Source: a virus. Taken from it: DNA of 41,348 nt. Below are positions 7,879 through 38,301 of this stretch, one piece after another. Each line of letters opens with the position of its first letter. Positions within the stretch are counted from its first letter, which is position 1. Both the position numbers and the translations under genes were made by a program. The notes beneath the pieces were generated by a model. The model did no database searches and was not told the DNA's origin. It was given only the letters and a program-made list of their open reading frames with translations. The DNA lies in the IMG/VR virus record IMGVR_UViG_3300042691_010884, positions 1-41,348 of that record; one strand, 5' to 3'.

Positions 7879-7889
7879 TTAGGATTATT

Positions 7890-12982: not shown

Positions 12983-13001
12983 GTCAGAATGAAGTCTGAC
13001 A
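12982..13001 (+). promoter_or_regulatory. Hairpin presenting the start codon of the next gene in its loop
   Basis: TGTCAGA (12982-12988) pairs perfectly with TCTGACA (12995-13001) around the 6-nt loop ATGAAG, whose first three bases are the ATG at 12989. No clear ribosome-binding site precedes this start. The structure could control translation of the polymerase-III-like gene in read-through transcripts, or be a protein-binding site. Confidence 0.5.
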
Positions 13002-13489: not shown

Positions 13490-13514
13490 GTAGTATTATT
13501 ATAGGAGATACATT

Positions 13515-15782: not shown

Positions 15783-16219
15783 TGGAATTAGACCCAAGGG
15801 ATCCTGAAAGACGAAATAGTCTTACATATCCTATGGAAATAGGAGCACCTAAGTTTGATCTAGTACCTGTTACTAAACAAAAAGACATAATGCTCAATGT
15901 AGCCCGACTACATGCACAACAGGAATACGAACGCATTATGGAAGTAGTACGTGTAATGCAGAGACAAGCTGATCAAATTAAACGTAGAATTGAAATCACA
16001 GATGCTGTTCATGCAGCTGAATATCAGTTTCAAGTTTATCATAATCAAATTTATTGGTTAGCTTTTGATCATAAAATAAACAAGACTAGACTTTGTCATC
16101 AAGGTCCAAATGACTGGACTACTGGGGTTCCGGCACATTATGATTACATTGGCAGAGTTAAATGGCTAGGTGACTATACTTGGTTAGAAGTCGACGACGA
16201 AGGTAATCCTGTACCATGA
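15782..16219 (+). CDS. DUF2452-like protein in the slot after gp44
   Basis: This 145-residue protein has helices in the middle (about 40-80, including ERIMEVVRVMQRQADQIKRR) followed by AAEYQFQVYHNQIYWL, then GPNDW, then YIGRVKWLGDYTWLEV. This order resembles the DUF2452 family as I remember it, a small family with no known function. In T4 the gene after 44 is 62 (187 residues, the small clamp-loader subunit), but I see no similarity to gp62. The start overlaps the gp44 stop by one base and its own stop overlaps the deaminase start as ATGA. It could be a diverged clamp-loader partner by position, but the sequence does not show that. Confidence 0.6.
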   Translation: MELDPRDPERRNSLTYPMEIGAPKFDLVPVTKQKDIMLNVARLHAQQEYERIMEVVRVMQRQADQIKRRIEITDAVHAAEYQFQVYHNQIYWLAFDHKINKTRLCHQGPNDWTTGVPAHYDYIGRVKWLGDYTWLEVDDEGNPVP

Positions 16220-16695
16220 AACAAAAATTTATTGATTTATACATGGACTGGGCTAAACGATTATCTCAACTTAGCCATGCTCGAAGATTACAAGTAGGAG
16301 CAGTAATCGTCAAAGATGATACAGTTATTAGCTATGGATATAATGGGATGCCAGCTGGATGGGATAATAACTGTGAACATCGTGTATATGCTAATGAATG
16401 GACTGTTGACGCGAACGAATGGCAATACAAGGATGACGAGGGTAAACTTTATAATTTAAAAACTAAACCGGAGGTACTACATGCAGAATCAAACGCAATT
16501 AGTAAACTGGCTCGTAGTCATAACAGTGGTTCCGATGCTGATATTTTTATCACACACAGCCCTTGTCTTGAATGCGCCAAACTCATTTATCAATCTGGCA
16601 TTAGTCGTGTGTTTTATTCTCAAGACTACCGCGATAGCTCAGGAATTGATTTCTTACTACAGTCAAGAATACCAGTAGAAAAAATAGGGGAGTAA
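16216..16695 (+). CDS. cd: dCMP deaminase
   Basis: This 159-residue zinc enzyme deaminates dCMP to dUMP, feeding dTMP synthesis. The zinc and catalytic residues are His89-Ala-Glu91 (in VLHAESNAI) and Cys117/Cys120 (in SPCLEC). SHARRLQVGAVIV (20-32) and GYNGMPAGWDNNC (41-53) are typical of the T4 cd family. The start overlaps the preceding stop (ATGA), and a perfect inverted repeat terminator begins inside its last codons. It belongs with the MazG-like enzyme to nucleotide-pool control for replication of an AT-rich phage genome. Confidence 0.93.
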   Translation: MKQKFIDLYMDWAKRLSQLSHARRLQVGAVIVKDDTVISYGYNGMPAGWDNNCEHRVYANEWTVDANEWQYKDDEGKLYNLKTKPEVLHAESNAISKLARSHNSGSDADIFITHSPCLECAKLIYQSGISRVFYSQDYRDSSGIDFLLQSRIPVEKIGE

Positions 16696-16708
16696 CTCCC
16701 CTATTTTT
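16680..16708. terminator. Bidirectional terminator between cd and phoH
   Basis: A perfect 13-bp inverted repeat has arms 16680-16692 and 16696-16708, with a 3-nt loop TAA that is the stop codon of the plus-strand gene. The arms are A-rich then G-rich on one side and C-rich then T-rich on the other, so each strand has a GC stem followed by a T-tract. It separates convergent genes. Confidence 0.9.
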
Positions 16709-17423
16709 AATCGCCGTATATCTTCAAGATTTCTTTAACAGCTTCGTGACGTTCTATATCTGAATTATCGAATCTTACAACGTCTATATGTTCTAATTTT
16801 TTGTGTTGTTCAATCCTTTCTATAAAATTAATAAGACCGTTGTCTTTTAATCTGTCTGCTTGAGCTAGATCTCCTGTGACTACCATTTTACTCCCTTCAC
16901 CTAATCTAGTAAGCAGCATCTTCATTTGGTTCTGAGTAGCGTTTTGCATTTCATCAGCAATAACGTATGCGTTTTTAAAGGTGCGGCCACGCATATAAGC
17001 CAGTGGGCTAATCTCTACTACTTTTTCGTAGAGCATGTTTTCTATATCTTTTTGACTATAATATTCTCCTAATACATCAAAAATTGGTCGAGTCCAAGGG
17101 GCCATTTTTTCATTAAGATCTCCTGGCAAAAATCCTAGGTCCTCGTCCACACTAACGGCGGGTCTAGTAATAATAATCTTATCAACTTTTCCTTCCTGAT
17201 ACTGTTTGATACCCATCTGCACAGCTAATAAAGTTTTACCCGTACCTGCTGGGCCGATAGCAAAAACTATGTTTTTAGTATCATCACTTAGCTTGTTTAG
17301 GTATAATTCTTGATGCTTGTTTCGAGGATGAAGCAGCAAACGCAGCTTCTTATTAGGAAGGTATGGTTGAAAATCAATTACATTTACATCTGAAGTAAAG
17401 CGTTTTTTCACTCTTTTACTCAT
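16707..17423 (-). CDS. phoH: PhoH-like P-loop ATPase
   Basis: This 238-residue protein is of the PhoH family, common in marine phages. Walker A is GPAGTGKTLLA (about 58-68) and the Walker B-type motif is VIADEMQN. ITRPAVSVDEDLGFLPGDLN and VVTGDLAQAD are family signatures. The family resembles the ATPase half of helicases and is tied to phosphate-stress regulation in bacteria; the role in phages is not settled. It is the only minus-strand gene in this half of the window, convergent with dCMP deaminase, and has GGGAG before its ATG. Its leader contains a hairpin followed by a T-tract. Confidence 0.92.
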   Translation of the reverse strand: MSKRVKKRFTSDVNVIDFQPYLPNKKLRLLLHPRNKHQELYLNKLSDDTKNIVFAIGPAGTGKTLLAVQMGIKQYQEGKVDKIIITRPAVSVDEDLGFLPGDLNEKMAPWTRPIFDVLGEYYSQKDIENMLYEKVVEISPLAYMRGRTFKNAYVIADEMQNATQNQMKMLLTRLGEGSKMVVTGDLAQADRLKDNGLINFIERIEQHKKLEHIDVVRFDNSDIERHEAVKEILKIYGD

Positions 17424-24668: not shown

Positions 24669-25508
24669 ATGACTATACAACCTAGTACTTTATTACGAGC
24701 TTATTTAGATATCCTAAATGAAACTACAGCACCAGTAGCTCCTGATGTGCAAGGCATGGCTCCTGGAACATCAAAGGATTTAGAAGGCGGTGAAAAAGTT
24801 ACATTAGGCACCGATGGTGCTATTCAGCATATGGGCGATTGGGGAACGTATGTATTTGACAAAACAGGTAAGTTTGTAAAAACAATATCTCCCCAGATTC
24901 AAGGTTACCAAAAACAAACTGACGCATCTGGCAACACGGTTCAGCAAGATTTTAATGTAGGGCCTGTAAGTGTATCTAAAGGCACTCAAGGAACAACTGC
25001 TTCGTATGATATGGGTCCAAGTGGTGGTACCAAAACAAAGACATTTGAAAATTCTCTTAGAAACAAAAGTTTATTGGAGCGTATCGAAGAAGTAGAAAAC
25101 GACGGCCCATTAACTTCCGGCGATTACTTTCATATAGAGCTAGCAGAGGATGAAGGAATTGAAACTTACATCATTGCTGAATGGAGTGAATCAGTTCTTA
25201 TCGAAGCTGACAAAGATACTCTTAAATTATTAGAAGAACATGGTTGTACATTCCACGACGAACTTACAGAGGCAGAATATCAAGGACGTACCGTTCCTTT
25301 AGGTAAACCAATGTCCGGTGATGTTAAAAAATCCAAAGTTTATGTTAAAAAGCCAAATGGCAAAGTAGTTAAAGTAAACTTTGGCGATAAAAAAATGACT
25401 ATTAAAAAGTCAAATCCTAAACGTAGAAAATCTTTCAGAGCAAGACATAACTGTCAAAATCCAGGACCTCGCTGGAAAGCACGTTATTGGTCATGTAGGG
25501 CATGGTAA
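24669..25508 (+). CDS. Probable head-associated protein with capsid-targeting-like N-terminus and RHNC/YWSC tail
   Basis: The 279-residue protein opens with MTIQPSTLLRAYLDILNE, an amphipathic peptide ending in Leu-Asn-Glu, like T4 capsid-targeting sequences cut by the prohead protease after (L/I)xE. The middle has two acidic segments (AEDEGIETYIIAEWSES, and LTEAEYQGRTVPLGKPMSGD). The basic C-terminus carries RRKSFRARHNC, then PGPRWKARYWSCRAW, with two Cys and one His that could bind metal. I recall such tails in proteins of several tailed phages, without an agreed function. Late promoter control fits a virion component. It opens the run of genes I interpret as internal head or assembly proteins. 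Confidence 0.6.
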   Translation: MTIQPSTLLRAYLDILNETTAPVAPDVQGMAPGTSKDLEGGEKVTLGTDGAIQHMGDWGTYVFDKTGKFVKTISPQIQGYQKQTDASGNTVQQDFNVGPVSVSKGTQGTTASYDMGPSGGTKTKTFENSLRNKSLLERIEEVENDGPLTSGDYFHIELAEDEGIETYIIAEWSESVLIEADKDTLKLLEEHGCTFHDELTEAEYQGRTVPLGKPMSGDVKKSKVYVKKPNGKVVKVNFGDKKMTIKKSNPKRRKSFRARHNCQNPGPRWKARYWSCRAW

Positions 25509-25512
25509 AATT

Positions 25513-25845
25513 ATGAGAATAGACGAACTGTTTGATCCTAACAAATTTAAAAAAGATGATTTTAATCTAAAAGACGATTTAGTCTTTTATATGAATAATC
25601 AACCTGATTTTTATCGCAAGCATTATTATCCTTCTATGTGTACATTTAAAGAGTATTATGATAATGATAAAAAAATCAGTCCTAGAGCATTTGGAAAAAT
25701 GGTAGAACGTGCTTACAAAATGTATCGTAGCGAGTTTCCTGTACAAGGTTTAAATGAAACTTTAGATAAGGATATTTTCGAAGAGATATGTGCCGAAATA
25801 CATAAAATAGAATTAGAAAATATTAAAAACGGGCATTACGATTAA
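25513..25845 (+). CDS. Conserved hypothetical protein (RIDELFD family)
   Basis: This 110-residue protein begins MRIDELFDPNKFKKDDFNLK and continues DDLVFYMNNQPDFYRKHYYP. The Tyr/Phe-rich centre and SEFPVQGLNETL are distinctive, and I recall related proteins in T4-like marine phages, always without a function. The first residues (IDELFD) resemble the start of the neighbouring putatively packaged proteins but lack a clear (hydrophobic)-x-Glu cleavage site. It is 4 bp after the preceding stop and 2 bp before the next gene, so it is part of the same operon. No membrane segment is seen. Confidence 0.6.
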   Translation: MRIDELFDPNKFKKDDFNLKDDLVFYMNNQPDFYRKHYYPSMCTFKEYYDNDKKISPRAFGKMVERAYKMYRSEFPVQGLNETLDKDIFEEICAEIHKIELENIKNGHYD

Positions 25846-25847
25846 CT

Positions 25848-26783
25848 ATGCTACTTAGAGAATTATTTTTTGAAAGTTCAGGTCGCTCTAATGAAGGCAA
25901 AAGTGCTGTATTAGGATGGGGTCGAGGCATGGGTCACAAAGGCCATATGTTGTTAGCAAAGGCTGTTATACATCATGCCCAAGAAAATAATGCCAAACCT
26001 TATTTTGTTGTATCAAGGACAAGTCTTGTAGATCCTAGCACTGGTCAACCTTGGACAGATAAACCCACATTTACTAAAACTAAAGATGATCCTTTATCAC
26101 CAGAAGAAAAACTTGCAACATATCGTAAAGTATTTCCTCAAAATGCAGATGTATTCAGTGTTGCTACTGCAGATGCTAGCACATTAGACAAAGTTCTAGC
26201 TAAAATTGCTCAAGATGGATTTAATCGAGTTATATTAGTTGTTGGGGAAGATCAAAAAAATAGTATGGGATTCTTAACAAGACCGGATAAGTCAGGTGTT
26301 CCTCCATATAAACAAGCAGGTCTAACAAATCTTGAAATTATTTCTAGACAAGATACCACTGAACCTAGCAGTATGCGAGGCGGGCCGGAGTATCAAGAAG
26401 GTCCGCGTGCTACACCAATGAGACAAATATTACTTGACCCTAGCAAGAGTGAAGAAGAACAATTTGCTGTTTGGCGTAGAGATATGCCAGACAATCTAAG
26501 TGACGATGAAGTGATGGATTTAATGCTCAAGGCAAAACAACGAATGAGCATGGTTCCTGCTTCAAAGAGAAACTCAAAAGAAAAAGTCACAGAAAAACAA
26601 GACGGAGTATATACTCCTGTAAAAACTCGAGAATGCCCTTATTGTAAACGTTCAGAAGAAAAATGTTTGTGTAGTAAAAAAGAAGATGCTGCTGGTGTCG
26701 GCATTATTACTAAACAAAACACAACAGCTGATGTTAATAAAGGCACACCAAGAAAAAATTTAAAAGCATTCAAGTTGATTTAA
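25848..26783 (+). CDS. Nucleotidyltransferase-fold (cytidylyltransferase-like) protein with zinc-binding tail
   Basis: This 311-residue protein starts with the short peptide MLLRELFFES, resembling the leader of the gene at 30230. Residues 21-195 carry the nucleotidyltransferase signature: GRGMGHKGH (25-33, the HxGH ATP-binding motif), VVGEDQ (131-136) and ATPMR (188-192, equivalent to the SxTxxR motif). Enzymes of this fold join a nucleotide to a phosphorylated partner, for example in NAD or phospholipid precursor synthesis; the substrate here is unknown. A probable zinc knuckle (CPYC 263-266 and CLC 273-275) and a GVGIITKQNTTADVNKGTPR tail follow. The start has no strong ribosome-binding site and is only 2 bp after the previous stop. 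Confidence 0.75.
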   Translation: MLLRELFFESSGRSNEGKSAVLGWGRGMGHKGHMLLAKAVIHHAQENNAKPYFVVSRTSLVDPSTGQPWTDKPTFTKTKDDPLSPEEKLATYRKVFPQNADVFSVATADASTLDKVLAKIAQDGFNRVILVVGEDQKNSMGFLTRPDKSGVPPYKQAGLTNLEIISRQDTTEPSSMRGGPEYQEGPRATPMRQILLDPSKSEEEQFAVWRRDMPDNLSDDEVMDLMLKAKQRMSMVPASKRNSKEKVTEKQDGVYTPVKTRECPYCKRSEEKCLCSKKEDAAGVGIITKQNTTADVNKGTPRKNLKAFKLI

Positions 26784-26792
26784 GGATATAAG

Positions 26793-27233
26793 ATGGACGA
26801 TTTATACCGAGCCAGTAAAGTAGCATTTGCCAGTACTTTTAGTTTTTATTTAAAAGCTCATAACTTTCATTGGAATGTCGAAGGTATACATTTTAAAGAA
26901 CTTCATGATCTATTTGGAGGAATATATGAAGAAGTATATGGTAGCATTGATGACTTTGCTGAAAAAATACGTAGCCTAGGTACTTACGTACCTGCTAGTT
27001 TTAGTAGATTTACAATGTTAACTCAGATAGAAGACGAAGAAAATATGTTGCCACCTGAAGCAATGCTTCAGGAATTATTAGAAGATAATGGCAAGATGAT
27101 TAAACTTTTAAAGTTAGTGTTTGTAGAATCAGAAAAATATAATGAATATGGATTCAGTGATTTTATTGCTGGACGTATTGATTCTCATCGTAAGCATGGC
27201 TGGATGTTAAGAGCTACTTTAAAAAATGGATGA
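26793..27233 (+). CDS. Dps-like ferritin-family protein
   Basis: This 146-residue four-helix protein matches the Dps (DNA protection during starvation) family. The ferroxidase residues have the exact family spacing: His26, His38 (12 later), Asp53 (15 later) and Glu57 (4 later). Flanking motifs are HNFHWNVEGIHFKELHDLF and IDDFAEKIRSLG. Dps forms dodecamers that oxidise and store iron and shield DNA from peroxide. AAGGAT upstream supports the start. It lies among genes interpreted here as virion or head genes but lacks the N-terminal leader peptide. It may protect phage DNA or supply iron during infection; this is inference. Confidence 0.88.
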   Translation: MDDLYRASKVAFASTFSFYLKAHNFHWNVEGIHFKELHDLFGGIYEEVYGSIDDFAEKIRSLGTYVPASFSRFTMLTQIEDEENMLPPEAMLQELLEDNGKMIKLLKLVFVESEKYNEYGFSDFIAGRIDSHRKHGWMLRATLKNG

Positions 27234-27444
27234 ATTAACTCAAATTAAAAAGCTTGCCGGGATAAATGAATTCAAAGGGCTAAGTGTTTGGGAAGGAAGC
27301 AATATAAGTATTACTGGCAATGAAAAAGGCCAGATAATGAAGAAGAAGAATATACAACCGGGTACACCTGATTGGTTTAAACTTTGGTTCAGCTTACCTT
27401 ACTTAACTGGTGAAAAACCTGTAGACGACGATGAAAGTAATTGA
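27226..27444 (+). CDS. Small hypothetical protein with (I)NE leader
   Basis: This 72-residue protein begins MDELTQIKKLAGINEFKG, an amphipathic stretch ending in Ile-Asn-Glu, matching the (hydrophobic)-x-Glu pattern of its neighbours. It continues with NISITGNEKGQIMKKKNIQP and GTPDWFKLWFSLPYLTGEKP. I recall close relatives in marine T4-like phages with no function assigned. It overlaps the Dps-like gene by 8 bp and the fusion gene by 14 bp, so it is translated as part of a coupled run. There is no catalytic motif or membrane helix. Confidence 0.6.
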   Translation: MDELTQIKKLAGINEFKGLSVWEGSNISITGNEKGQIMKKKNIQPGTPDWFKLWFSLPYLTGEKPVDDDESN

Positions 27445-29596
27445 TATTATAACTGAAAGAGAACAGGCACCTCAAGGTAATATGGGCCTCACTATCTTCG
27501 ACATCGACGATACACTATTTCATACTACTGCTAAAATTAAAGTTATGAAAGACGGTAAGGTAGTTCGTACACTTACTAATCAAGAATTCAATAATTATAA
27601 TCTGCAACCAGGCGAAGAGTTTGACTTCGGTGAGTTTCGTAGTGCTGAAAAATTTGCTAAAGAAAGCGAACCAATTAAGCCAATGATTAACACACTTAAA
27701 AGAATACTAGACAGAGCTGCTAATACAAAAGTTATCATGCTCACCGCTAGAGCAGATTTTGACGATAAAGAAAAGTTTTTAGATACATTCACAAAGTACG
27801 GTATTGATATGAGTAGAGTACACGTACATCGAGCAGGAAATTTACCAGGCGACGAACCACCGGCATATAAAAAAGCTATATGGGTAAGAAAATATCTTAA
27901 TACCGGAAAATATAATAGAGTCAACCTAATTGACGATTCTATGAGTAATCTTAAAGTTTTTAAAAGTTTAAAATCAGAATACCCAAGTGTAGACTTTGAT
28001 GCGTATTTTGTTAAACCTGAAGGAAGTATCGCAGTTGTAGAATCATGGCTTAAAGAGAAAGTAGATTCGTATGGCAATGTCAAAGGCGACCCAATAGGCG
28101 ACTTAATTAAAAATCTTGATAAACAAAAAACTAATCCAGCTAAACCATCTACAAAACCTCCCATTGTTAAAAAAGATACCGGACAAGCAGCACAACCCAC
28201 TCCTATTACTGGTAGTTCTTTAGAACAAACTTTAAGAAATTTCGCATTAAAAGCAGGAATAAAAGGAAAAGAATTAGCTCAATTTTTAGCCCAGTGTGCT
28301 CATGAATCAGCAAACTACTCAACCTTAGTGGAGTTTGGAGCTAGTCAAGATTTTCTAAAAAAATATGACAAACAATTTAATCCTGATAAGGCAAAGGAGT
28401 TAGGTAATAGTGTTCCTGGCGACGGGGAAAGATTTAAAGGTAGAGGATTTATACAACTGACTGGACGATGGAACTATACACAAGCAGGGCAAGCATTGGG
28501 CTTGCCTTTGGATAATAAACCAGAGTTATTAGAGAAACCAGATATAGCAGCCAAGGCTAGTATATGGTTTTGGCAAAATAGAGTAAAACCTAATGTAAAG
28601 AATTTCACCGATACAAGAACTGTGACAAGTTATATTAATCCTGGTTTACGAGGATTACAAAAACGACACGGTATATTTCAAAATTATCTAAAAACTATGA
28701 GTATGGCTAAGGAAGATTATCATCCTAATGCTACTCCTCCTGGTCCAGAAACTAAACCAACAATGCCGGCAGGCACTGTAAGAGTAGATGTTGATGATGT
28801 GTATGATTGGTACAAACTAGGTCAGCACATTAGTAATATGAAAGGATTAGGTAAACATGATTTCGGCAAAGGGCCGCCCAGTACCATATTTTCATTTGGT
28901 AGCGAAGAAGAAGAACACAAATACATCGATGCTTTAAAGAAAACAGGATTAACCACAACCGATATTGATCCTGTAGATCCTAGACAGCCTAAAGGCATGA
29001 AGCGTCAGAAAGTCGACCCAACATACAATGTAGGTGAAGACGCAATGCGAGATGTCATTTATACTAAACCCAATTTAGAAAACGAATGGGAAGAAGCAGA
29101 ACGCTATCCAGAGTTTGTAAAATTAGGTAAAGATGCTTGGATCGAACTTGCTAAGAAAGGCCGGGCAGTTACTATCAACAGTGCCCAAGGTATCAACAAC
29201 ACCGATGCTGCTGATCCAGATAGTTTTAAATTATTACATCCGGAAAAACAAAAACGTGCCCTGGCACAACTTGAAAAAGGAACAGTTGAAATGCCTATAG
29301 TTGCTGTTTATAGTGACGGTCATAAAGAACTTATTGGTGGTAATACAAGACTTACTGCTATGATGGCAAGAAACGGTCGAGCAACTATTTGGGCATTTAG
29401 AGTTCCAGACAATATTGTAGAAAACTTTGCCGATGGCAAGAACCCGCAAGACAAAGGTGACAGTAAGCGTCATGGTATACCTAAGAAAGCCAGTATATCA
29501 GCGTTAAAAAAAATACGTAGCAGTGATACAGCCAGTCCTCGTAAAAAGCAATTGGCACATTGGCAAATAAATATGAAACAAGGGAGAAATAAATGA
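27431..29596 (+). CDS. Multidomain fusion: HAD phosphatase - GH19 hydrolase - ParB-like, with capsid-targeting-like leader
   Basis: This 721-residue protein has four parts. Residues 1-9, MKVIDIITE, resemble T4 capsid-targeting leaders. Residues about 18-205 are a HAD-type phosphatase/hydrolase: FDIDDT (23-28), LTAR (104-107) and LIDDS (166-170). Residues about 262-422 are a glycoside hydrolase family 19 (chitinase/endolysin) domain with catalytic Glu292 in CAHESANY and GRGFIQLTGRWNY (337-349). Residues about 448-500 hold a segment with FSFGSEEEEHKYI. Residues about 555-660 are ParB-like, with IGGNTRLTAMMA (635-646). The frame is continuous and the linkers are Pro/Lys-rich, so the fusion looks real. 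Phosphatase, wall-hydrolase and DNA-binding-type folds in one late protein suggest packaging and ejection, which is inference. Confidence 0.8.
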   Translation: MKVIDIITEREQAPQGNMGLTIFDIDDTLFHTTAKIKVMKDGKVVRTLTNQEFNNYNLQPGEEFDFGEFRSAEKFAKESEPIKPMINTLKRILDRAANTKVIMLTARADFDDKEKFLDTFTKYGIDMSRVHVHRAGNLPGDEPPAYKKAIWVRKYLNTGKYNRVNLIDDSMSNLKVFKSLKSEYPSVDFDAYFVKPEGSIAVVESWLKEKVDSYGNVKGDPIGDLIKNLDKQKTNPAKPSTKPPIVKKDTGQAAQPTPITGSSLEQTLRNFALKAGIKGKELAQFLAQCAHESANYSTLVEFGASQDFLKKYDKQFNPDKAKELGNSVPGDGERFKGRGFIQLTGRWNYTQAGQALGLPLDNKPELLEKPDIAAKASIWFWQNRVKPNVKNFTDTRTVTSYINPGLRGLQKRHGIFQNYLKTMSMAKEDYHPNATPPGPETKPTMPAGTVRVDVDDVYDWYKLGQHISNMKGLGKHDFGKGPPSTIFSFGSEEEEHKYIDALKKTGLTTTDIDPVDPRQPKGMKRQKVDPTYNVGEDAMRDVIYTKPNLENEWEEAERYPEFVKLGKDAWIELAKKGRAVTINSAQGINNTDAADPDSFKLLHPEKQKRALAQLEKGTVEMPIVAVYSDGHKELIGGNTRLTAMMARNGRATIWAFRVPDNIVENFADGKNPQDKGDSKRHGIPKKASISALKKIRSSDTASPRKKQLAHWQINMKQGRNK

Positions 29597-30228
29597 GCGC
29601 ATTTGAATTTGATTTCACATTGGCAAAGTTAAAGAAAGTTGTACACAAAAACAAAGAATTAGATCTTTGGTACAATGCTTTTAATACTTATTTGCCTAAA
29701 TTTTTAATTACTACACCTGCTAGAGTAGCAGGGTTCGTAGCACAGTGCCAGCATGAATCTGCTGACTTTACAGCACTACAAGAAAACTTAAACTACGGAG
29801 CTAAAGGTCTTCGTGGATTATTTGGCAAGTATTTTCCGGATGACAGTACAGCAAAAGCTTATGAACGTAAACCAGAAAAAATTGCTAACAAAATCTACAG
29901 CGGACGTATGGGCAATGGTCCAGAAGCTAGCGGTGAAGGTTGGAAATTTCGAGGACGCGGTATTCTACAACTTACAGGCAAAAGTAATTATGCCCAATGT
30001 AGTAAAGATTTGTTCGGCGACGACACACTAGTACAAGATCCGGATTTATTAAGAACTCCAGAATATGCTACACTAAGTGCTTGCTGGTTCTGGTATAAGA
30101 ATCAATTAAACCCAATTTGCGATAAGGGTGATATTGTACTATTAAGTAAAAAAATTAATGGCGGAACCATTGGTATGGAAGATCGTATCAAACACTGGAA
30201 TGATGCGCTAGACGCATTTGAAAGCTAA
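29593..30228 (+). CDS. GH19 endolysin (chitinase-like lysozyme)
   Basis: This 211-residue single-domain glycoside hydrolase family 19 protein is typical of phage endolysins that cleave peptidoglycan at lysis. Catalytic Glu55 lies in VAQCQHESADF; IYSGRMGNG and WKFRGRGILQLTGKSNY follow in the correct order, then a C-terminal YATLSACWFWYKNQLNP segment. No signal peptide or anchor is seen, so release would depend on a holin. GGGAG gives a good ribosome-binding site and the ATG overlaps the previous stop. It shares the fold and core motifs with the GH19 domain of the preceding fusion protein but keeps the RMGNG segment that the fused domain has lost. Confidence 0.92.
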   Translation: MSAFEFDFTLAKLKKVVHKNKELDLWYNAFNTYLPKFLITTPARVAGFVAQCQHESADFTALQENLNYGAKGLRGLFGKYFPDDSTAKAYERKPEKIANKIYSGRMGNGPEASGEGWKFRGRGILQLTGKSNYAQCSKDLFGDDTLVQDPDLLRTPEYATLSACWFWYKNQLNPICDKGDIVLLSKKINGGTIGMEDRIKHWNDALDAFES

Positions 30229-30229
30229 T

Positions 30230-30427
30230 ATGCTATTAAGAGAATTACTAGGTGTTATGAATGAAAATGCTACTGGCGGCGCAACATCTGCTGGTAGTGT
30301 CACTGTTGGCCCTACTGAACTTAATAAAAAAGCTAAAACTTTTAAAAATAAAGACGGAACTACTAAAAATGCTCTAGATGTTAAAGGTGCTAATCTTTTA
30401 ACAGGAATGAGCTTTAAAAAACGATAA
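30230..30427 (+). CDS. Small protein with capsid-targeting-like leader
   Basis: This 65-residue basic protein starts MLLRELLGVMNENATGG. LLRELLGVMNE aligns with LLRAYLDILNE (gene at 24669) and KKFLSIMNE (inside the protein at 31511), and ends in the (hydrophobic)-x-Glu pattern cut by T4-type prohead proteases. The remainder is Lys, Thr and Gly-rich and probably disordered, ending MSFKKR, like a small DNA-binding internal head protein. I prefer the ATG at 30230 to the upstream in-frame TTG because it follows the endolysin stop by one base and matches the leader of the nucleotidyltransferase gene. Confidence 0.6.
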   Translation: MLLRELLGVMNENATGGATSAGSVTVGPTELNKKAKTFKNKDGTTKNALDVKGANLLTGMSFKKR

Positions 30428-30430
30428 ATA
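30423..30430 (+). promoter_or_regulatory. T4-type late promoter motif GATAAATA
   Basis: The octamer overlaps the stop of the preceding small gene and lies 19 bp before the ATG at 30450, with TTGGAG (30438-30443) as ribosome-binding site. Seven of eight positions match the T4 consensus. Confidence 0.65.
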
Positions 30431-30449
30431 CCTAGTATTGGAGAAAATA

Positions 30450-31508
30450 ATGCACGACGACATGATGAACAGAAGCCCTGACAAACACGAAGCTGCAATG
30501 GCTCGTGCTGACTTATACAAGTTAGCTAACTATAGCATGAAGCTATTTAAAATGATTCACGAAGGCCAAGAGCTAGAAGGGTGGGTACAGGCTAAAATTA
30601 CCAAAGCTGCTGATTACGTTGCCAGCGTATATCATTTTATGGAATATGAAATGAAGTCTAGCGATTACGGTAGTAAACTAGAAAACAGTGATGTTTATTC
30701 AGAGTCAGTGCGTAAGGCCTTTGAACAAAAGCTAATGGAAGCTAAAAAGCAAGCAGAAAAAATTAAAGCCAAAGCAGAAAAGATGGACGAAGGATGGGAC
30801 GATATGCTTAAGGCAGTTAAAGATAGATCCGGTCCCCAACCTAGTGGCGGAAGTGGCATAAAGAAAGGTTCACGTTACGGTGGTAGTAAACAGAAAGCAG
30901 ACGAACCAGAAAAGGATGATGACGATGAAAAGCCGACAAAAAGTAAAAAAGTTAAAGAAGCGGCTAAGCCAGATTATCTTGACTTCGACAAGGACGGCAA
31001 CAAAAAAGAGCCAATGAAAAAGGCACTAAAAGATAAGAAAGTTAAAGAAGATTTAAAATTAAGCGAACTAAAAAAATCAACTCTAGGATCTTACGTTAAA
31101 AAGGCAAGTAAAGATGCTGTGAAAAAAACACGTGATTCAGATGCTGAAGATGAATATGGTGATCCAGACGAAGGCGAAAAGCTAGATAAAAAAGCACAAA
31201 AGCGTATGGCAGGTGTAAACAAAGCAGTTGACAAATTAACCAAAGAAGCAGCAATGAGCCCAGCACCCGCTCCTAAAAAAACTGGCATTCCTAATACAGC
31301 AACAACTACAGTGCCAGGAATGAAAGCGACTCAACAAGATTTAAAGAAAGCTAATTCTAGTGCTGCGTTAGGAGAAAGTAAGTGCAATCATACTCCAAAA
31401 GGAAAATCTTGTCCAGTACATGGCCTGAAAGAATGTGGTAGTATGAGCGAAGCTAAAAATTTAAAACAACAAGCAGCCATAGCAATCGCTAAGAAAAAGG
31501 CCAAGTAA
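30450..31508 (+). CDS. Lys-rich internal-head or scaffold-like protein
   Basis: This 352-residue protein has a conserved helical N-terminus (about 14-70, with ADLYKLANYSMKLFKMIHEG and ELEGWVQAKITKAADYVASV). A long, highly charged Lys/Asp/Glu region with low complexity follows. DFDKDGNKKEP (178-188) resembles a DxDxDG calcium-loop, STLGSYVKKAS lies at about 210-220, and a Cys/His cluster is at 312-329 (C-x8-C-PVH-x4-C). Several (hydrophobic or Val)-x-Glu sites, such as LGES and MSEA, could be processing points. Lysine-rich charged proteins of this kind occur in T4-like prohead cores. I chose the ATG at 30450 (TTGGAG upstream) over the TTG at 30438. The call is by composition, context and late promoter. 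Confidence 0.6.
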   Translation: MHDDMMNRSPDKHEAAMARADLYKLANYSMKLFKMIHEGQELEGWVQAKITKAADYVASVYHFMEYEMKSSDYGSKLENSDVYSESVRKAFEQKLMEAKKQAEKIKAKAEKMDEGWDDMLKAVKDRSGPQPSGGSGIKKGSRYGGSKQKADEPEKDDDDEKPTKSKKVKEAAKPDYLDFDKDGNKKEPMKKALKDKKVKEDLKLSELKKSTLGSYVKKASKDAVKKTRDSDAEDEYGDPDEGEKLDKKAQKRMAGVNKAVDKLTKEAAMSPAPAPKKTGIPNTATTTVPGMKATQQDLKKANSSAALGESKCNHTPKGKSCPVHGLKECGSMSEAKNLKQQAAIAIAKKKAK

Positions 31509-31510
31509 TT

Positions 31511-32428
31511 ATGGACATGAAAAAAATTCTTGCTGCTGTAGATAAAGCAGACAATAAAACTAAAACTTCTTCTGGCGACATGAAGAAGTTTTTATCTATT
31601 ATGAACGAGTCTGCTACTAATCGTTTAAGTATGGCTGAACAAATGGCTGTACAACAGTATCAGGAACCGCGCAAGAATATTACTAGTCCAGTATTAAACA
31701 AAGATAAAGATGCTACTCCAAGCATGATTGGAAAGTATTTTAAAAAAATAGAAGACGAAATAGCAGAATCGGAAGGTCGTTATAAGGATCGTACTAAACT
31801 ATTAGCCGAAAGAGTAGCTGCTAAAATGAATGAACGCACCGCCGATGTAGATGCTGCTGTTAAAGATTATCTTAATAAAGGCGGAGAAGTTAAAAAAGGC
31901 AAGTCACACAAACCAAGAAAAAGTGAAAAAACTGATTTTGGTAGTAAACATATTGGCGGTAAAGGCGAAGTGAGTCAAGGTAAAGCAACAAAGATTGGAA
32001 AATCAGCCAAAACTACTCCAGCAGGAAAACCTGTTGTTACCGCCGAAGATTTAGAACACCTGATTAGAATACGCGATAATCTAAATGAACAAATTTCCCA
32101 ATTAGAAGAATACTATAGTGCTCCACCGAACGACAGTAGAAGTCCTATATCAGGACCCCATCAGCCAGGGTGTAGATGTAAAGAAGTAGAAGAAGGCCTG
32201 CGTGATCCTAAAGACAATCCATGTTGGAAAGGTTACAAGCCTGTTGGTACAAAGAAAAAAGGTGGGCGTACTGTTCCAAATTGTGTGCCTAAGGAGTCAG
32301 TACAAAAAACTGGGACAGCAGGACAATTAAAAGCAAAAGGTAAAGTAGACGTAAAAGGTACAGTATTAGGGTCTCCAGAAAAAAGTCAAAAAGGCCTACG
32401 CAATAAGTTAGTAGGCGGCGGAACATAA
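31511..32428 (+). CDS. Head-associated-type protein with internal MNES leader motif and DNPCWKGY motif
   Basis: This 305-residue basic protein has MKKFLSIMNESATNRLSMAE near residues 24-43, aligning with leaders of neighbouring proteins, so N-terminal processing at Met-Asn-Glu is plausible. The centre is Lys/Gly-rich and disordered. Near residues 225-262 it has PGCRCKEVEEGLRDPKDNPC then WKGYKPVGTKKKGG and VPNCVPKE, a Cys-containing motif I recall from proteins of many T4-like phages. It begins 2 bp after the preceding stop. A structured 114-bp gap follows. A head or core role is inferred from composition and context. Confidence 0.6.
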   Translation: MDMKKILAAVDKADNKTKTSSGDMKKFLSIMNESATNRLSMAEQMAVQQYQEPRKNITSPVLNKDKDATPSMIGKYFKKIEDEIAESEGRYKDRTKLLAERVAAKMNERTADVDAAVKDYLNKGGEVKKGKSHKPRKSEKTDFGSKHIGGKGEVSQGKATKIGKSAKTTPAGKPVVTAEDLEHLIRIRDNLNEQISQLEEYYSAPPNDSRSPISGPHQPGCRCKEVEEGLRDPKDNPCWKGYKPVGTKKKGGRTVPNCVPKESVQKTGTAGQLKAKGKVDVKGTVLGSPEKSQKGLRNKLVGGGT

Positions 32429-32542
32429 GGACACACCTTAGGACCGGTACTAGTTACCGTAAAGTGTGAGGCGGCTGCTGCCTTAGTGAAACGATTCGCT
32501 ACCGTGTAACTACAAAGTGAGCAAGAATTTTAGGAAAGTATT
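32429..32542 (+). other. Structured non-coding segment (candidate small RNA or leader)
   Basis: This 114-bp gap lacks an ORF but is dense in stem-loops. CACAC (32432-32436) pairs with GTGTG (32464-32468), enclosing CGGTA/TACCG with loop CTAGT (32445-32459). GGC/GCC lies at about 32470-32482. AGTGAA/TTCGCT with loop ACGA spans 32485-32500. TTACCGTAAAGTG and CTACCGTGTAACTACAAAGTG form an imperfect direct repeat. It is more GC-rich than other gaps. No tRNA fold fits. It could be a phage small RNA or a 5' regulatory leader for the gene at 32543. Confidence 0.45.
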
Positions 32543-33877
32543 ATGGGAAAAGTTTATAAAAAGTTAGTTGAAAGTTTTGGATACATTGCTGAAGCGCCTA
32601 TAAATGCTACAGGATATGATCCAGATAAAGTACAATACGCATATCAAGATGGTAAAGCTAATCCTAATTATCCAGGTGCTAAACCTACACCAGGCCCAGA
32701 TACAAGTGATTACCAAGATCCTAAAGGTCTTGATAATGTAACCAACGATCCTGAACAAAAAAAGGATAAACCAAAGCCAAAACCAGGAATGACTGCTAAT
32801 CCTGGAACAAAAGCATATCAGCATTGGTTAACTCAAAATGGATATAAAGTAGCTATCGACGGAAAATATGGTCCAGAAACTAAAAGAGTAACTAGTGACA
32901 TTGTTAATAACAGACTTAATAAAGCCACTGAATTCAAAGCAAGAACAGGAAAATATGCTCCCGGTGAAGAGGAGTTTATGAAAGCATGGCAAGACATGCA
33001 CGGTGTAGGAGCAGCTTACAATGTAAGACCTGGACAAGGTCCAGGAACTGTTAGTTTGGGCGATGCAGCATTTGTTAAAATAATGAAACAGTATGGATAT
33101 GATCCGAAAACTGGGGATCCAACTGGTTCTGCTAAACCTACTACAGGACAGCCTGGCCAAGCTGGTCAGTATAAAACCGGAGCACTTCCTTCCAAGCAAG
33201 AAGATATAATTCTAAACAGTATTGGAAAATTAGAAGCTATTTTTAAAAAATATGGCATAAAAGTAGAATGTGCTTATAAAGACGATGGCTCACTATTAAC
33301 AGAAGATGATTGGGTATTAAAACATATCAACATGTTCACTGCACAGGAACAAATGGAGATCTGGAAGACTTTAAGTGAAGCAGAACTAACTCCTTTTGGC
33401 AGTGTTGGAGCTGACATTGCTGCTAGAAGAAGAGGAGCCGAAGTAGCATCTGCGTATAAAGACAGTCTAGCGGCAGGACAAAGATATCAACAGGGTGCCA
33501 CTGCTGCTGCTCAAAATATGCCGCAGAAACAAAGCACTTTAAGTAAGTTTGGTAAGAATCTAGCAGGTAGATTTGGAATGGGTAGTGGAAAACGTGCTGC
33601 TGCTAAAGGTGCTGCAAAATTAGGTTTAAGAGCTATTCCTTATATTGGAACAGCCGTGTTACTATGGGATATCGGTAGTGCCTTATACGACACATTTGCT
33701 ACTACCGAAATTGCTGATTTAGATCCAGCTGATCAACAAATTATTGCTCAAGAAATTAAAAATCTTACAGACATGAGCAAATCTGCTGATTATGCTAGTG
33801 TTTCAGAAGAAACTAAGAAACGAGTTACTGCGATATTGAATGCTGCTAATAAGATGGCGCAACAAGCAGAAGCTTAA
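32543..33877 (+). CDS. Probable internal virion/ejection-type protein with PG-binding-like and membrane segments
   Basis: This 444-residue protein starts MGKVYKKLVESFGYIAEAPI, with (hydrophobic)-x-Glu sites at LVE (8-10) and IAE (15-17). Residues about 50-85 are Pro/Lys-rich. Residues about 88-115 (YQHWLTQNGYKVAIDGKYGP then ETK) resemble a peptidoglycan-binding type 1 repeat (GxxVxxDGxxGPxT). A Gly/Gln-rich stretch and an Ala-rich, positively charged region lead to a hydrophobic segment (about 362-383, AIPYIGTAVLLWDIGSALYD) that could insert in a membrane. Such features fit an ejected protein, but no family is recognised. AGGAAAG precedes the ATG and a terminator follows the stop directly. 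Confidence 0.55.
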   Translation: MGKVYKKLVESFGYIAEAPINATGYDPDKVQYAYQDGKANPNYPGAKPTPGPDTSDYQDPKGLDNVTNDPEQKKDKPKPKPGMTANPGTKAYQHWLTQNGYKVAIDGKYGPETKRVTSDIVNNRLNKATEFKARTGKYAPGEEEFMKAWQDMHGVGAAYNVRPGQGPGTVSLGDAAFVKIMKQYGYDPKTGDPTGSAKPTTGQPGQAGQYKTGALPSKQEDIILNSIGKLEAIFKKYGIKVECAYKDDGSLLTEDDWVLKHINMFTAQEQMEIWKTLSEAELTPFGSVGADIAARRRGAEVASAYKDSLAAGQRYQQGATAAAQNMPQKQSTLSKFGKNLAGRFGMGSGKRAAAKGAAKLGLRAIPYIGTAVLLWDIGSALYDTFATTEIADLDPADQQIIAQEIKNLTDMSKSADYASVSEETKKRVTAILNAANKMAQQAEA

Positions 33878-33878
33878 C

Positions 33879-33902
33879 AAAAAGCCCCGCAAGGGGCTTT
33901 TT
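33879..33902. terminator. Bidirectional terminator with GCAA tetraloop
   Basis: AAAAAGCCCC (33879-33888) and GGGGCTTTTT (33893-33902) form a perfect 10-bp stem with a GCAA (GNRA) loop. A-tract and T-tract flank the GC core, so it can act on both strands. It ends the late operon and the minus-strand gene at 33902. Confidence 0.92.
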
Positions 33903-34216
33903 TAATGCCAGTTGCCTTGGAAACAATGTCTTACTTCATGTCCTAGGCTGTGCATGGTTGTTTGCTTTCCAGTAATAATAGTACACTGATTACCATCAAA
34001 AAAACTACAAGCCTGTACTCCATAACCAAAACCGTTAAATCCACGCTTACGTGATTCAGCTTCACATGCTTTCTGAACATCAACAACTGTACGCCAAGTT
34101 ATAGTGCTCTGAGTTGTATAATTATTACTAGTATCAAACGGTTTGTTTGGATCATCGTTAAATGCCATTGCATTTGTAGCAACACATAAAGAAATAATCA
34201 ATGCGGTAATTTTCAT
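33902..34216 (-). CDS. Small secreted HExxH-motif protein (moron-like)
   Basis: The 104-residue product has a clear Sec signal peptide (MKITALIISLCVATNAMAF, cleavage predicted after Ala-Met-Ala). The mature part has three Cys (in KACEAE, VQACSF and NQCTII) and ends with GHEVRHCFQGNWH, which contains HExxH (His-Glu-Val-Arg-His), the zinc motif of many metalloproteases, plus a further Cys. At about 85 mature residues it is small for a protease, so an enzyme activity is uncertain. It is read opposite to the flanking phage genes, has its own promoter and ends at a bidirectional terminator, an arrangement typical of an acquired host gene. I vaguely recall similar secreted proteins in aquatic betaproteobacteria; this needs a search. 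Confidence 0.75.
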   Translation of the reverse strand: MKITALIISLCVATNAMAFNDDPNKPFDTSNNYTTQSTITWRTVVDVQKACEAESRKRGFNGFGYGVQACSFFDGNQCTIITGKQTTMHSLGHEVRHCFQGNWH

Positions 34217-34347: not shown

Positions 34348-34611
34348 ATGAGTAGAATGTACGGACCCGAGGAAAAAACTAAATTAGAAAAACTTATTAA
34401 CGAAGGATCAACCGTTTTAAGAGAAATTGAAGATTTACAAGAGGGTCTAAAAGAAACTGTAAAGGCAGTAGCAGAAGAATTGAATATCAAACCAAGTATC
34501 ATTAATAAGGCAATCAAAATTGCGCATAAAGATAACTGGCGGGTACACGAAGAAGAATGGGATGAAATTGAAATGATCTTAGGTGTCACTAAAAACTTAC
34601 CTCAAGACTAA
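34348..34611 (+). CDS. dsbA: DsbA-like double-stranded DNA-binding transcription factor
   Basis: This 87-residue charged, helical protein is close in length to T4 DsbA (89), a dsDNA-binding protein that acts at late promoters. LEKLINEGSTVLREIEDLQE (13-32), then a helix-turn-helix-like VAEELNIKPSIINKAIKIAH (40-59), then HKDNWRVHEEEWDEIEMILG are typical of this family in T4-like phages. It is unrelated to the bacterial disulfide enzyme of the same name. AGGAGA supports the start. It is the first gene after a strong sigma70-like promoter and overlaps the next gene by one base. It may tune late transcription. Confidence 0.8.
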   Translation: MSRMYGPEEKTKLEKLINEGSTVLREIEDLQEGLKETVKAVAEELNIKPSIINKAIKIAHKDNWRVHEEEWDEIEMILGVTKNLPQD

Positions 34612-35637: not shown

Positions 35638-38301
35638 ATGTACGTAGACGCATACTTTAATCGCGACTCTGATGTCATACATGTTGTAGAACGCAACAAC
35701 GAAGGCAAACGAGTTTTCAAAGAATTTCCTGTCAAATATACTTTTTACTATCCAGATGCTCGAGGTAAATTTACTAGCATCTATGGAGATCCCTTAAGTA
35801 GGATCGTCTGTAAAACTAGTAAAGATTTTCATAGAGAACTTAAGATACATAGTAATCAAAAACTTTTTGAAGCCGATATTAATCCACTTTTTGTTTGTCT
35901 AAGCGAACATTATCTTAATCAAGATTCTCCTAAACTGAATGCGGCATTTTTTGACATTGAAGTAGACTTCGATCCGGAACGTGGCTACGCAAGTCCAGAA
36001 GATGCGTTCATGCCAATTACTGCCATTGCTGTTCATTTACAATGGTTAGATACTATGGTTTGCTTGGCTATTCCTCCTAAAAGTCTTAGTATGTCCCAAG
36101 CAAAAGAATTAGTAAAAGATTTTCCTAATACACATCTTTTCGATAACGAAGCAGATATGTTAGATACATTTCTTAATCTAATTCAAGATGCTGACATACT
36201 ATCAGGTTGGAACAGTGAAGGATTTGATATTCCATATACTGTAAATCGTGTAACAAAAGTTTTAAGCAAAGATGATACCAGACGTTTTTGTTTATGGAAT
36301 CTTCACCCTAGACGGAGAGAATATGAAAAATACGGAAAAACAGCACAGACCTATGACTTGGTTGGACGGGTACATCTCGATTACCTCGAACTATACCGTA
36401 AGTATACATACGAAGAAAGACACTCCTATCGATTGGATGCCATCGCGGAATATGAACTTGGTGAAAAGAAAACACAGTACGAAGGCACGTTAGATCAATT
36501 ATATAACAATGACTTCAAGACGTTTGTTGAATACAACAGACAAGACTGTGCGCTGCTGGACAAATTGGATAAGAAACTAAAGTTCTTAGACCTAAGTAAT
36601 AAACTGGCACACGAAAATACTGTATTACTACAGACCACAATGGGTGCTGTGGCTGTTACTGAACAGGCCATCATTAACGAAGCTCATCGTAGAGGATTCC
36701 AAGTTCCTAATCGTACAAAGATGAGTGAACGAGAAGACACAGCCGCTGCTGGTGCTTATGTAGCATATCCTAAAGAAGGTATTCAAGATTGGGTAGGATC
36801 TTTAGATATTAATAGTCTTTATCCTAGTGCCATTAGAGCATTGAATATGGGTCCAGAAACTATTGTAGGTCAACTCAGGCAAACAATGACCGAAGAATAT
36901 ATTCAAGGACTAATGGCCAAAGGCAAATCATTCGCTGCTAGTTGGGAGGGTAAATTTGGTTCCTTAGAATATGAAGCAGTAATGAATAAAGAAATTGGAA
37001 CAGATATTACTATTGATTGGGAAGATGGTAGAAATGATGTAATAAGTGCAGCACAAACATATCAATTGATATTTGAAAGCAATCAATCTTTTATGTTAAG
37101 CAGTAACGGCACTATTTTTACGTATGAAAAAGAAGGAGTAATTCCTGGACTACTCAAACGCTGGTATGCTGAACGTAAAGAAATGCAAGCCAAACTGAAG
37201 GAATGTATAGCCAATGGAAATAAAATTGAAGAAGAATATTGGGATAAGCGACAATTGGTTAAGAAGATTAATCTTAATAGTTTGTATGGTGCTATTCTTA
37301 ATCCTGGCTGTAGGTTTTTCGATAAAAGGATCGGTCAGTCGACAACACTTGTCGGCCGACAAATTGCCAAACATATGGCTAGTAAAGTCAACGAAATAAT
37401 TACTGGAGAATATAACCATGTTGGAAAAGCTATTATCTACGGCGATACTGATAGTTGTTATTTTTCTGCTTATAACACGCTTAAAAAAGACATACAAGCA
37501 GGACACATTCCGTGGACAAAAGAAACAATAATAACATTATATGATCAAATTGGAGATGAAGTTAATAAAACGTTTTCTAAATTTATGGAAGATGCGTTTC
37601 ATTGTCCTAGATCAAGAGGAGAAGTAATTAAAGCAGGTCGGGAAATTGTAGGTTCTAAAGCATTATTCATTACTAAAAAAAGATATGCTGTACTCTATTA
37701 CGATAAAGAAGGCAAACGTGTCGATAGTGATAGCAAACCTGGCAAGATTAAAGCTATGGGGTTAGATCTTAAACGCAGTGATACTCCAGAATTTATTCAA
37801 GATTTTTTAAGTAACGTTCTTGAAATGGTGTTAACTGGGGCTATCGAACAAGAAGTTTTAGATTATATTACTGAATTTAGAATAGCATTTAAGGCTCGAC
37901 CTGGTTGGGAGAAGGGTTCTCCTAAACGTGCTAACAATATTACAGAATACGAAGCTAAAGAACATCGTCAAGGTAAAGCTAATATGCCTGGTCATGTAAG
38001 AGCAAGTATTAACTGGAATACTTTGAAACGCATGTTTAATGACAAATACTCTATGAATATAGTAGATGGAATGAAAGTGATTGTTTGTAAATTAAAAGAT
38101 AATCCTTTAGAATATACAAGTGTAGCATATCCAGTGGATGAATTACGCTTACCTCAATGGTTCAAAGATTTGCCTTTTGATCATTCAGAAATGGAAGCAA
38201 CAATTATTGATAAAAAATTAGAAAATCTAATTGGTGTTCTAAATTGGAACATCGGAAGCACAGAAGAAAAAAATACTTTTAACAGTCTTTTTGACTTCTA
38301 A
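35638..38301 (+). CDS. gp43: Family B DNA polymerase (T4 gp43-like)
   Basis: This 887-residue replicative polymerase (T4 gp43 has 898) has all exonuclease and polymerase motifs. Exo I is FFDIEVDF (about 103-110), Exo II SGWNSEGFDIPY and Exo III YNRQDCALLDK. Polymerase motif A is SLDINSLYPSAIRAL, motif B KKINLNSLYGAILNPG and motif C YGDTDSCYF, with KKRYAVLYY following. Both proofreading and synthesis should be active. The start has ATGGAG upstream and a hairpin like the T4 autogenous operator. Unlike in T4, the clamp gene follows the polymerase while the clamp loader is 20 kb away; no regA homologue is recognisable nearby. Confidence 0.97.
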   Translation: MYVDAYFNRDSDVIHVVERNNEGKRVFKEFPVKYTFYYPDARGKFTSIYGDPLSRIVCKTSKDFHRELKIHSNQKLFEADINPLFVCLSEHYLNQDSPKLNAAFFDIEVDFDPERGYASPEDAFMPITAIAVHLQWLDTMVCLAIPPKSLSMSQAKELVKDFPNTHLFDNEADMLDTFLNLIQDADILSGWNSEGFDIPYTVNRVTKVLSKDDTRRFCLWNLHPRRREYEKYGKTAQTYDLVGRVHLDYLELYRKYTYEERHSYRLDAIAEYELGEKKTQYEGTLDQLYNNDFKTFVEYNRQDCALLDKLDKKLKFLDLSNKLAHENTVLLQTTMGAVAVTEQAIINEAHRRGFQVPNRTKMSEREDTAAAGAYVAYPKEGIQDWVGSLDINSLYPSAIRALNMGPETIVGQLRQTMTEEYIQGLMAKGKSFAASWEGKFGSLEYEAVMNKEIGTDITIDWEDGRNDVISAAQTYQLIFESNQSFMLSSNGTIFTYEKEGVIPGLLKRWYAERKEMQAKLKECIANGNKIEEEYWDKRQLVKKINLNSLYGAILNPGCRFFDKRIGQSTTLVGRQIAKHMASKVNEIITGEYNHVGKAIIYGDTDSCYFSAYNTLKKDIQAGHIPWTKETIITLYDQIGDEVNKTFSKFMEDAFHCPRSRGEVIKAGREIVGSKALFITKKRYAVLYYDKEGKRVDSDSKPGKIKAMGLDLKRSDTPEFIQDFLSNVLEMVLTGAIEQEVLDYITEFRIAFKARPGWEKGSPKRANNITEYEAKEHRQGKANMPGHVRASINWNTLKRMFNDKYSMNIVDGMKVIVCKLKDNPLEYTSVAYPVDELRLPQWFKDLPFDHSEMEATIIDKKLENLIGVLNWNIGSTEEKNTFNSLFDF

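Follow-up and report, generated by a model that had tools for sequence, protein, structure and literature searches.

Several head proteins of phage T4 carry a short N-terminal leader that ends in hydrophobic-x-Glu and is cut off by the gp21 protease. In the T4 record these leaders read MKTYQEFIAE/A in both IPII and IPIII, MELITELFDE/D in Alt, MAKINELLRE/S in gp24 and ...GSFLTE/A in gp23 (here and below, a slash or hyphen follows the last leader residue). In IPIII, residues 4 and 7 serve targeting, and residues 8 and 10 serve processing (PMC9026906). Here, we describe leaders, or tags, of this kind on a block of genes in a 41,348-base IMG/VR fragment (IMGVR_UViG_3300042691_010884, hereafter the window) from a T4-superfamily myovirus. 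The leader is of the known T4 capsid-targeting kind, in a variant form that many different enzymes of the block carry, and the block very probably encodes internal head cargo that is targeted to the capsid, trimmed by a protease and probably delivered with the DNA at infection.

Related arrangements are known from other phages. DarB of phage P1 has an N-terminal capsid-targeting signal (its first 30 residues are sufficient), and the ejection proteins of SPN3US are protease-processed internal proteins; these systems belong to different capsid lineages, however, and no shared Dar consensus sequence has been reported. For polyvalent proteins (PMC5512222), multidomain enzyme fusions that include lysozyme domains, packaging and delivery have been predicted, but the part of that survey cited here does not suggest a leader shared by packaged proteins of T4-type phages. 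Multidomain enzyme fusions are also seen in the window protein that starts at 27431 and in a protein of the environmental relative L120.

Source of the DNA and sampling of relatives

The window DNA polymerase (35638-38301) has its nearest annotated counterparts in Sinorhizobium phage Phosso, Agrobacterium phage Atu_ph07 and RaK2-like jumbo phages, at 43-49% identity. Megablast of window positions 20000-41000 against annotated phages gave no match, nor did tblastn of the nucleotidyltransferase encoded at 25848, so isolates were reached through modules of the 24669 and 31511 proteins (proteins are named by the window coordinate at which their genes start). Environmental relatives comprised the best 80 of more than 500 together with 80 further loci fetched with the 25848 nucleotidyltransferase, about 160 loci in total. 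Genes were called in the window, in these loci and in three long contigs (G001, G002 and G004), giving 2593 proteins. We define the block as the genes between a Clp ATPase gene and a DsbA-like gene, which includes the tagged window genes.

An earlier sequence-only reading of the window had proposed a set of capsid-targeted cargo proteins from shared N-terminal peptides. The open reading frames and N-termini that it listed are all present at their coordinates, and its interpretation is supported by the results below. Computed here are motif enrichment, genomic position, ortholog conservation, the protease and capsid genes of relatives, and a copy of the capsid junction; packaging, cleavage and injection in the window phage, and the role of each enzyme, we infer from T4. 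The sequence-only reading had also called for the prohead protease and major capsid protein genes to be located. A Peptidase_S77 prohead protease gene and a Gp23 capsid gene adjoin in the long relatives G002 and G004, while the window fragment contains neither.

Block leaders match T4 capsid-targeting sequences

Counted back from the Glu, the block tags have A, I or L at -6, F, L or I at -3, L or I at -2 and an acid (E or D) at -4. These offsets are those of IPIII residues 4, 7 and 8 for the hydrophobics and 6 for the acid, and the block tags have the sequence features of a T4-type capsid-targeting leader, some 10-19 N-terminal residues ending in hydrophobic-x-Glu with hydrophobics at the equivalents of IPIII 4, 7 and 8. 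The likeness to the leaders of IPI-III, Alt and gp24 extends to the S77 protease and Gp23 of the relatives and to enzyme cargo, which in T4 is represented by Alt. The block tags differ in usually being one residue shorter in front (Glu at 9, as opposed to 10 in T4), in being rich in R or K at position 2 with E or D at -4, and in their spread over many families (21/144), multidomain enzymes included, one of which families is double-tagged. The resemblance to gp21-cleaved T4 peptides noted in the sequence-only reading thus holds position by position. Two independent lines, both described below, agree with the interpretation: mass spectrometry of virions containing tagged cyanophage enzymes and the capsid-junction copy. 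T4 itself (NC_000866, 76061-76885, minus strand) encodes a further protein with a tag-like start, MAIFQIINE-S.

A strict start-anchored motif, M-x(1-2)-[hydrophobic]-x-[E/D/Q/N/K]-[hydrophobic]-[hydrophobic]-x-Glu, begins 166 of the 2593 proteins, compared with 5.3 ± 2.1 when N-termini are shuffled (maximum of 200 shuffles, 11); counted per protein family, the figures are 24 and 4.9. The motif is found on 160/1042 proteins inside the block and 5/1500 outside (Fisher p ~4e-58), and by family on 21/144 inside and a handful outside (p = 2.5e-8), p-values that are optimistic given how the motif and loci were chosen (see below). The motif search against shuffled N-termini that the sequence-only reading had suggested, run de novo with one representative per family, returned as its top result an amphipathic L-(R/K)-x-(L/I)-(L/I) with a score of 280, where internal segments reached 195 and shuffled sequences 149.

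A looser motif, hydrophobic-x-Glu within the first 30 residues, was rejected as a test because it is found on many non-block proteins and on internal segments at comparable rates. The DsbA-like protein (34348-34611) has a conserved helix, KLEKLINE-G, that resembles this loose form and makes a useful false-positive control. The shared peptide of the sequence-only reading therefore stands in its start-anchored form, which is far above shuffles and confined to the block, but not as a hydrophobic-x-Glu merely early in the protein, which is unspecific. Likewise, the finding that would have counted against it, equal frequency on non-virion proteins, is approached by the loose form but not by the start-anchored form, which is almost absent outside the block. 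Its tag observation is partly confirmed and needs re-sorting by gene.

Tagged enzymes occur in cyanophage virions

The virion proteome of cyanophage S-CREM2 has been determined by mass spectrometry, with coordinates (PMC10665884). Three of its virion enzymes have an IPIII-type leader with Glu at 10: an S-adenosylmethionine hydrolase (MKDFDSFLEE/F), a kinase (VKRFDAFLTE/E) and a cytidylyltransferase (MKNFSSFLTE/A). ORF13 and ORF136 have such a leader as well, and a Cas9-like virion protein has RFASFMAE beginning ~18 residues in. The T4-derived rule (Glu at 10) picks out 5/28 non-structural virion proteins and 1/128 other genes (p = 0.0007), where the non-virion set was taken from genes called here, fewer than the annotation lists. 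The strict window-clade motif, with its acid at -4, gave 0 matches among the S-CREM2 virion proteins; cyanophage tags have no acid at this position, so only the T4-shaped rule works there. The virion cytidylyltransferase of S-SZBM1 (PMC9146016) starts MRFRQFIIE/A, and NMNAT-like virion proteins are cited in the S-CREM2 paper for three cyanophages, S-CBWM1, S-SZBM1 and S-SCSM1 (PMC10665884).

S-CREM2, S-SZBM1 and S-SCSM1 thus resemble the window phage in having cytidylyltransferase or NMNAT-like enzymes, which in S-CREM2 and S-SZBM1 are tagged and in all three are in the virion. They differ in the rest of their cargo, and the S-CREM2 and S-SCSM1 papers are undecided between packaged and carried-over enzymes; the S-CREM2 paper makes no mention of capsid targeting (PMC10665884). 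With a leader search, the puzzle of metabolic enzymes recurring in cyanophage virion proteomes becomes a testable sequence rule.

A tagged protein repeats the predicted capsid maturation junction

The short 30230 gene belongs to a family in which the tag is 8-16 residues long and the Glu, present in 21/21 distinct sequences, keeps almost constant spacing to a TSA core that is itself conserved. Family members start MRLRELLGE-TATAGATSAG, MKITEIIIE-TATAGSTSAG and MRIKEILVKE-DATAGATSAG, and the window protein MLLRELLGVMNE-NATGGATSAG, strong ortholog support for the tag proposed here by the sequence-only reading. From the capsid alignment, the predicted maturation site of the clade capsid protein is KYLAE/SATAGATSAGNVATLNRV in G004 and KYLAE/SASTGATSAGNVATLNRV in G002. 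What follows the 30230 tag, MNE/NATGGATSAGSV, repeats what follows the predicted capsid cut, KYLAE/SATAGATSAGNV; the comparison is with the G004 capsid protein, the window's own capsid gene lying outside the fragment. When the G004 junction was searched in six frames, the best window match was at 30263-30301, exactly at the 30230 tag Glu, and the matches in G001 (at 74212) and in G004 (68119-68181, capsid gene aside) are both the equivalent tagged protein. In G001 and G004, the protein with this tag-plus-junction start is a single long chain at the place equivalent to 30230/30438.

Searches of other phages identified T4 gp61.1, SfCH8_129 and S-CREM2 ORF160, the last a detected virion protein (PMC10665884). 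T4 gp61.1 (L239; NC_000866 18966-19130, minus strand; PHROG 1823) has an IPIII-like leader, a copy of the gp23 junction (MKTFKEFIKE/DMVAGDSGGNPENISIGTTSGAVVNKGP, compared with FLTE/AEIGGDHGYNATNIAAGQTSGAVTQIGP in gp23) and a Lys-rich tail. A tag followed by the post-cleavage sequence of the phage's own capsid protein was found in T4, SfCH8, S-CREM2, G001, G004 and, measured against the G004 capsid, the window, and in each of these 0/300 shuffled queries did as well. The 30230 protein and gp61.1 share the tag, the own-capsid junction copy and the Lys-rich tail, but no sequence similarity was seen beyond this layout; the junction follows each phage's own capsid protein across deep lineages. Among twelve phages, three deep non-Straboviridae lineages match their own capsid arm best (95, 104 and 65, with other arms at ≤37). 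Within Straboviridae, 61.1 matches its own capsid arm no better than those of relatives, and no own-match is expected there since Straboviridae arms are all alike; no more than four deep lineages contribute to the own-match signal. Matches to the 61.1 family occur in 1437 phage records. Some homologues, for example in Shigella phage KNP5, Klebsiella phage KaAlpha and Serratia phage 4S, are labelled 'major capsid protein', apparently through junction similarity.

In the open-access literature we found no description of the junction copy, and gp61.1 was named only as a conserved hypothetical, not as a head protein; the T4 head proteins listed in the excerpt available do not include it. Our results suggest that gp61.1, with its copy of the gp23 maturation junction, is probably a head protein that has gone unrecognised, which flags a probable oversight in T4, the best-studied phage. 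For a broader claim we see an even chance: that a small packaged protein (T4 gp61.1, window 30230, S-CREM2 ORF160 and SfCH8_129) is widespread in the T4 superfamily, mimics the junction and mature N-terminal arm of the phage's own capsid protein and changes with them across deep lineages. Such a protein would be an undescribed head component that acts through the binding site of the capsid arm or engages the prohead protease as a decoy or competing substrate. Once trimmed, the 30230 protein would have an N-terminus almost the same as that of the mature capsid protein, plus a Lys-rich tail. We speculate that it docks on the inner capsid surface, which we judge likeliest, or acts as a protease or chaperone decoy; docking could be on the inner wall of the capsid or on the protease or scaffold, as the capsid arm does.

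It is improbable that the copy is instead a functionless relic left by duplication of a capsid gene. The match covers only 13-35 residues, as a relic might, and the 'major capsid protein' labels of some T4 61.1 homologues in public records would fit such an origin. However, the segment is retained in 21 distinct clade sequences and throughout the 61.1 family (>1400 phage records), it adjoins the tag in both T4 and the window clade, and S-CREM2 ORF160 is present in virions.

Proposed fate of the cargo and alternative explanations

The cargo consists of a nucleotidyltransferase, a multidomain HAD-GH19 protein and several Lys-rich proteins, with ParB, deaminase and kinase fusions in relatives. 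It is much more enzymatic than that of T4, as the sequence-only reading had put it. We propose that late in infection the N-terminal leaders would recruit the tagged proteins into the prohead core, and that the S77 prohead protease would then cut after the tag Glu during maturation. The trimmed enzymes would remain in the head with the DNA and exit with it at infection. By analogy with T4, the set is probably injected. The nucleotidyltransferase could then act at once on nicotinamide adenine dinucleotide or nucleotide pools, while the wall or nucleic-acid ends could be targets of the HAD-GH19 protein. In that case, the enzymes that uncultured T4-type phages package, and probably inject, would be readable directly from sequence.

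Several observations weigh against this proposal. The strict motif was written after viewing N-termini of the same related loci, and the loci were chosen through a pair of genes, of which one lies in the block and the other adjoins it, so that sampling favours the block; the family-level and T4-derived tests are safer on this account. The Glu-at-10 rule was itself refined from an earlier, looser version that had been applied to this S-CREM2 proteome (p = 0.01). The virion mass spectrometry of tagged proteins concerns homologues in S-CREM2 and S-SZBM1 only, and the S-CREM2 authors allow for carry-over contamination (PMC10665884). The Glu or the whole tag is missing in many orthologs of 25848 and 25513, the junction copy was not found in C48C1, HTVC008M or G002 (the G002 contig ends inside the block), and the T4-type late promoter consensus TATAAATA is not enriched in the window, with 2 sites, below chance, and 0 in the block.

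Among the alternatives, it is unlikely, though not far-fetched, that the peptide targets the prohead core but the cargo serves only head assembly, through core filling or DNA condensation, without being injected. Some of the tagged proteins and their neighbours are indeed Lys-rich and have no enzyme domains (24669, 30230, 30438 and 31511), and T4 IPIII and core proteins function in assembly (PMC9026906). Nucleotidyltransferase and GH19 bodies would be unlikely scaffolds, however, T4 Alt and the IPs are delivered, and related enzymes occur in mature virions. We consider it very unlikely that the peptides are a family-wide start habit or amphipathic helices that play no part in packaging and owe their enrichment to duplicated 5′ ends of block genes. 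The tags are short, their spelling differs from family to family, and a short leader could spread by recombination; yet in families with variable tag length the Glu stays directly before the body, the tags match T4 peptides of known function, and tagged homologues are found in virions. Chance, with hydrophobic-x-Glu being common and the examples hand-picked in the sequence-only reading, would account for the rates of the loose form on non-virion proteins and internal segments but is hardly credible for a start-anchored form 30-fold above shuffles and nearly absent outside the block.

Tags gene by gene

Window features are collected in Table 1. Predicted leaders are 9-18 residues long, and 33 in the double-tagged 31511 protein.

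Table 1. Tags and other features of the block in the window.
Feature	Position	Strand	Basis or comparison
Long-form tag MTIQPSTLLRAYLDILNE (18 residues) of 24669 protein	24669-24722	+	Orthologs MRIIDILTE-D, MTKTLLEYIEE-A; C48C1 homologue MKKFKQYIDE-G
Body of 24669 protein	24723-25508	+	C-terminal phrog_7595 module
Tag-like start MRIDELFD of 25513 protein, Asp in place of Glu	25513-25536	+	Family N-termini M[RK]I.EL(L/F)
Short tag MLLRELFFE of nucleotidyltransferase (25848-26783)	25848-25874	+	phrog_3041 cytidyltransferase, HxGH motif
Dps/ferritin-like protein, untagged block member	26793-27233	+	Pfam PF00210, E 1e-19; ortholog N-termini without tag
Small protein, tag not supported	27226-27444	+	Glu not conserved among orthologs
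Short tag MKVIDIITE of 721-residue multidomain protein	27431-27457	+	Orthologs MKILDIITE-R
Free GH19 lysozyme, untagged in window	29593-30228	+	Tagged homologue in L115 (MRLRELLSE-A)
Tag MLLRELLGVMNE of short gene 30230-30427	30230-30265	+	Glu invariant, 21/21 distinct orthologs
Copy of capsid maturation junction (NATGGATSAGSV; capsid SATAGATSAGNV) directly after tag Glu	30266-30301	+	Six-frame search, 0/300 shuffles as good
Lys-rich, partly helical protein downstream of 30230, separate gene (start 30438 or 30450)	30438-31508	+	
Double tag MDMKKILAAVD...GDMKKFLSIMNE of 31511 protein	31511-31609	+	Family N-termini
Probable tag MGKVYKKLVE (other candidate site ...GYIAE) of 444-residue protein	32543-32572	+	Orthologs MSLLRQYIKLVE-S

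The 25848 and 27431 peptides, described in the sequence-only reading as matching only loosely, are the clearest short tags, and their ortholog support is strong. In the AlphaFold model of 25848 (mean predicted local distance difference test score 71), the leader (residues 2-15) is of low confidence and lies apart from the folded body. The model has no significant match in the PDB (best E 0.009; the weak ones include ATP sulfurylase and TyrRS), so it is PHROG 3041/395 and the HxGH motif that identify the protein as a nucleotidyltransferase. The 27431 protein consists of a HAD phosphatase-like domain (phrog_415, residues 6-180, E 3e-11), a GH19 lysozyme (PF00182, E 1e-13) and a C-terminal region in which Pfam found no ParB domain; the ParB part of the suggested HAD-GH19-ParB-like fusion is therefore unconfirmed in the window. 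As GH19 is found in this tagged protein, and as a free lysozyme that is untagged here and tagged in L115, bodies of one kind appear to gain and lose tags.

The 24669 protein has few orthologs, all of which start with some, differently spelled, tag, and support for its tag is fair. The 25513 gene was overlooked in the earlier list, yet its orthologs have tag-like starts (MRIRELLE-G, MKITELFD-R and MLLKEFFG-K; MRIDELFD-P in the window). The Glu is retained in some members only, and the window protein is possibly targeted but not processed. The proposed tag of 27226 (IKKLAGINE-F) fails on ortholog comparison and was dropped: the Glu varies (IKPF, VKPF, IREF, VNSY), and half of the family has another N-terminus.

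The 31511 family has two tag-like copies, MDMKKILQAMD, which ends in Asp, followed by DMKKFLxIVxE with a conserved Glu. The site that had seemed troublingly internal in the sequence-only reading is thus the family rule, since the second copy holds the conserved Glu, and ortholog support is strong. In T4 IPIII, Asp at the Glu position blocks processing but not targeting (PMC9026906); that the first 31511 copy behaves in this way is speculation by analogy. The 32543 tag is weakly supported, with two candidate sites and few orthologs, and the protein has a peptidoglycan-binding match (PF01471) that is weak and below cut-off.

Other tagged proteins and neighbouring genes

Very long tagged proteins are found in relatives: L120 encodes one of 1097 residues (5925-9218) that combines nucleotidyltransferase, deaminase-like and ParB regions, and L091 encodes a 1239-residue nucleotidyltransferase-type protein (10001-13720) and a 546-residue kinase of the zeta-toxin/AAA type (15525-17165). 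The phrog_7595 module at the C-terminus of 24669-25508 (KRRKSFRARHNC...YWSC) is also present in phages of Pelagibacter and Roseobacter whose record sizes are not those of T4-like phages, which suggests that this body module travels between phage types. Residues 226-275 of the 31511-32428 product form a Cys-rich DPKDNPCWKGYKPVGTKKKGGRTVPNC module shared with cyanophage proteins; in Sf-CH8 it lies within an annotated cytidyltransferase.

Elsewhere in the window, 33902-34216 encodes a small secreted-looking protein on the minus strand of an otherwise one-way region, with 13 family members in relatives. Among tail-fibre-like genes, 7890-9482 encodes a subtilisin-like protease in which the motifs DSG, HGTHVAGI and SGTSMASP were recognised by eye.

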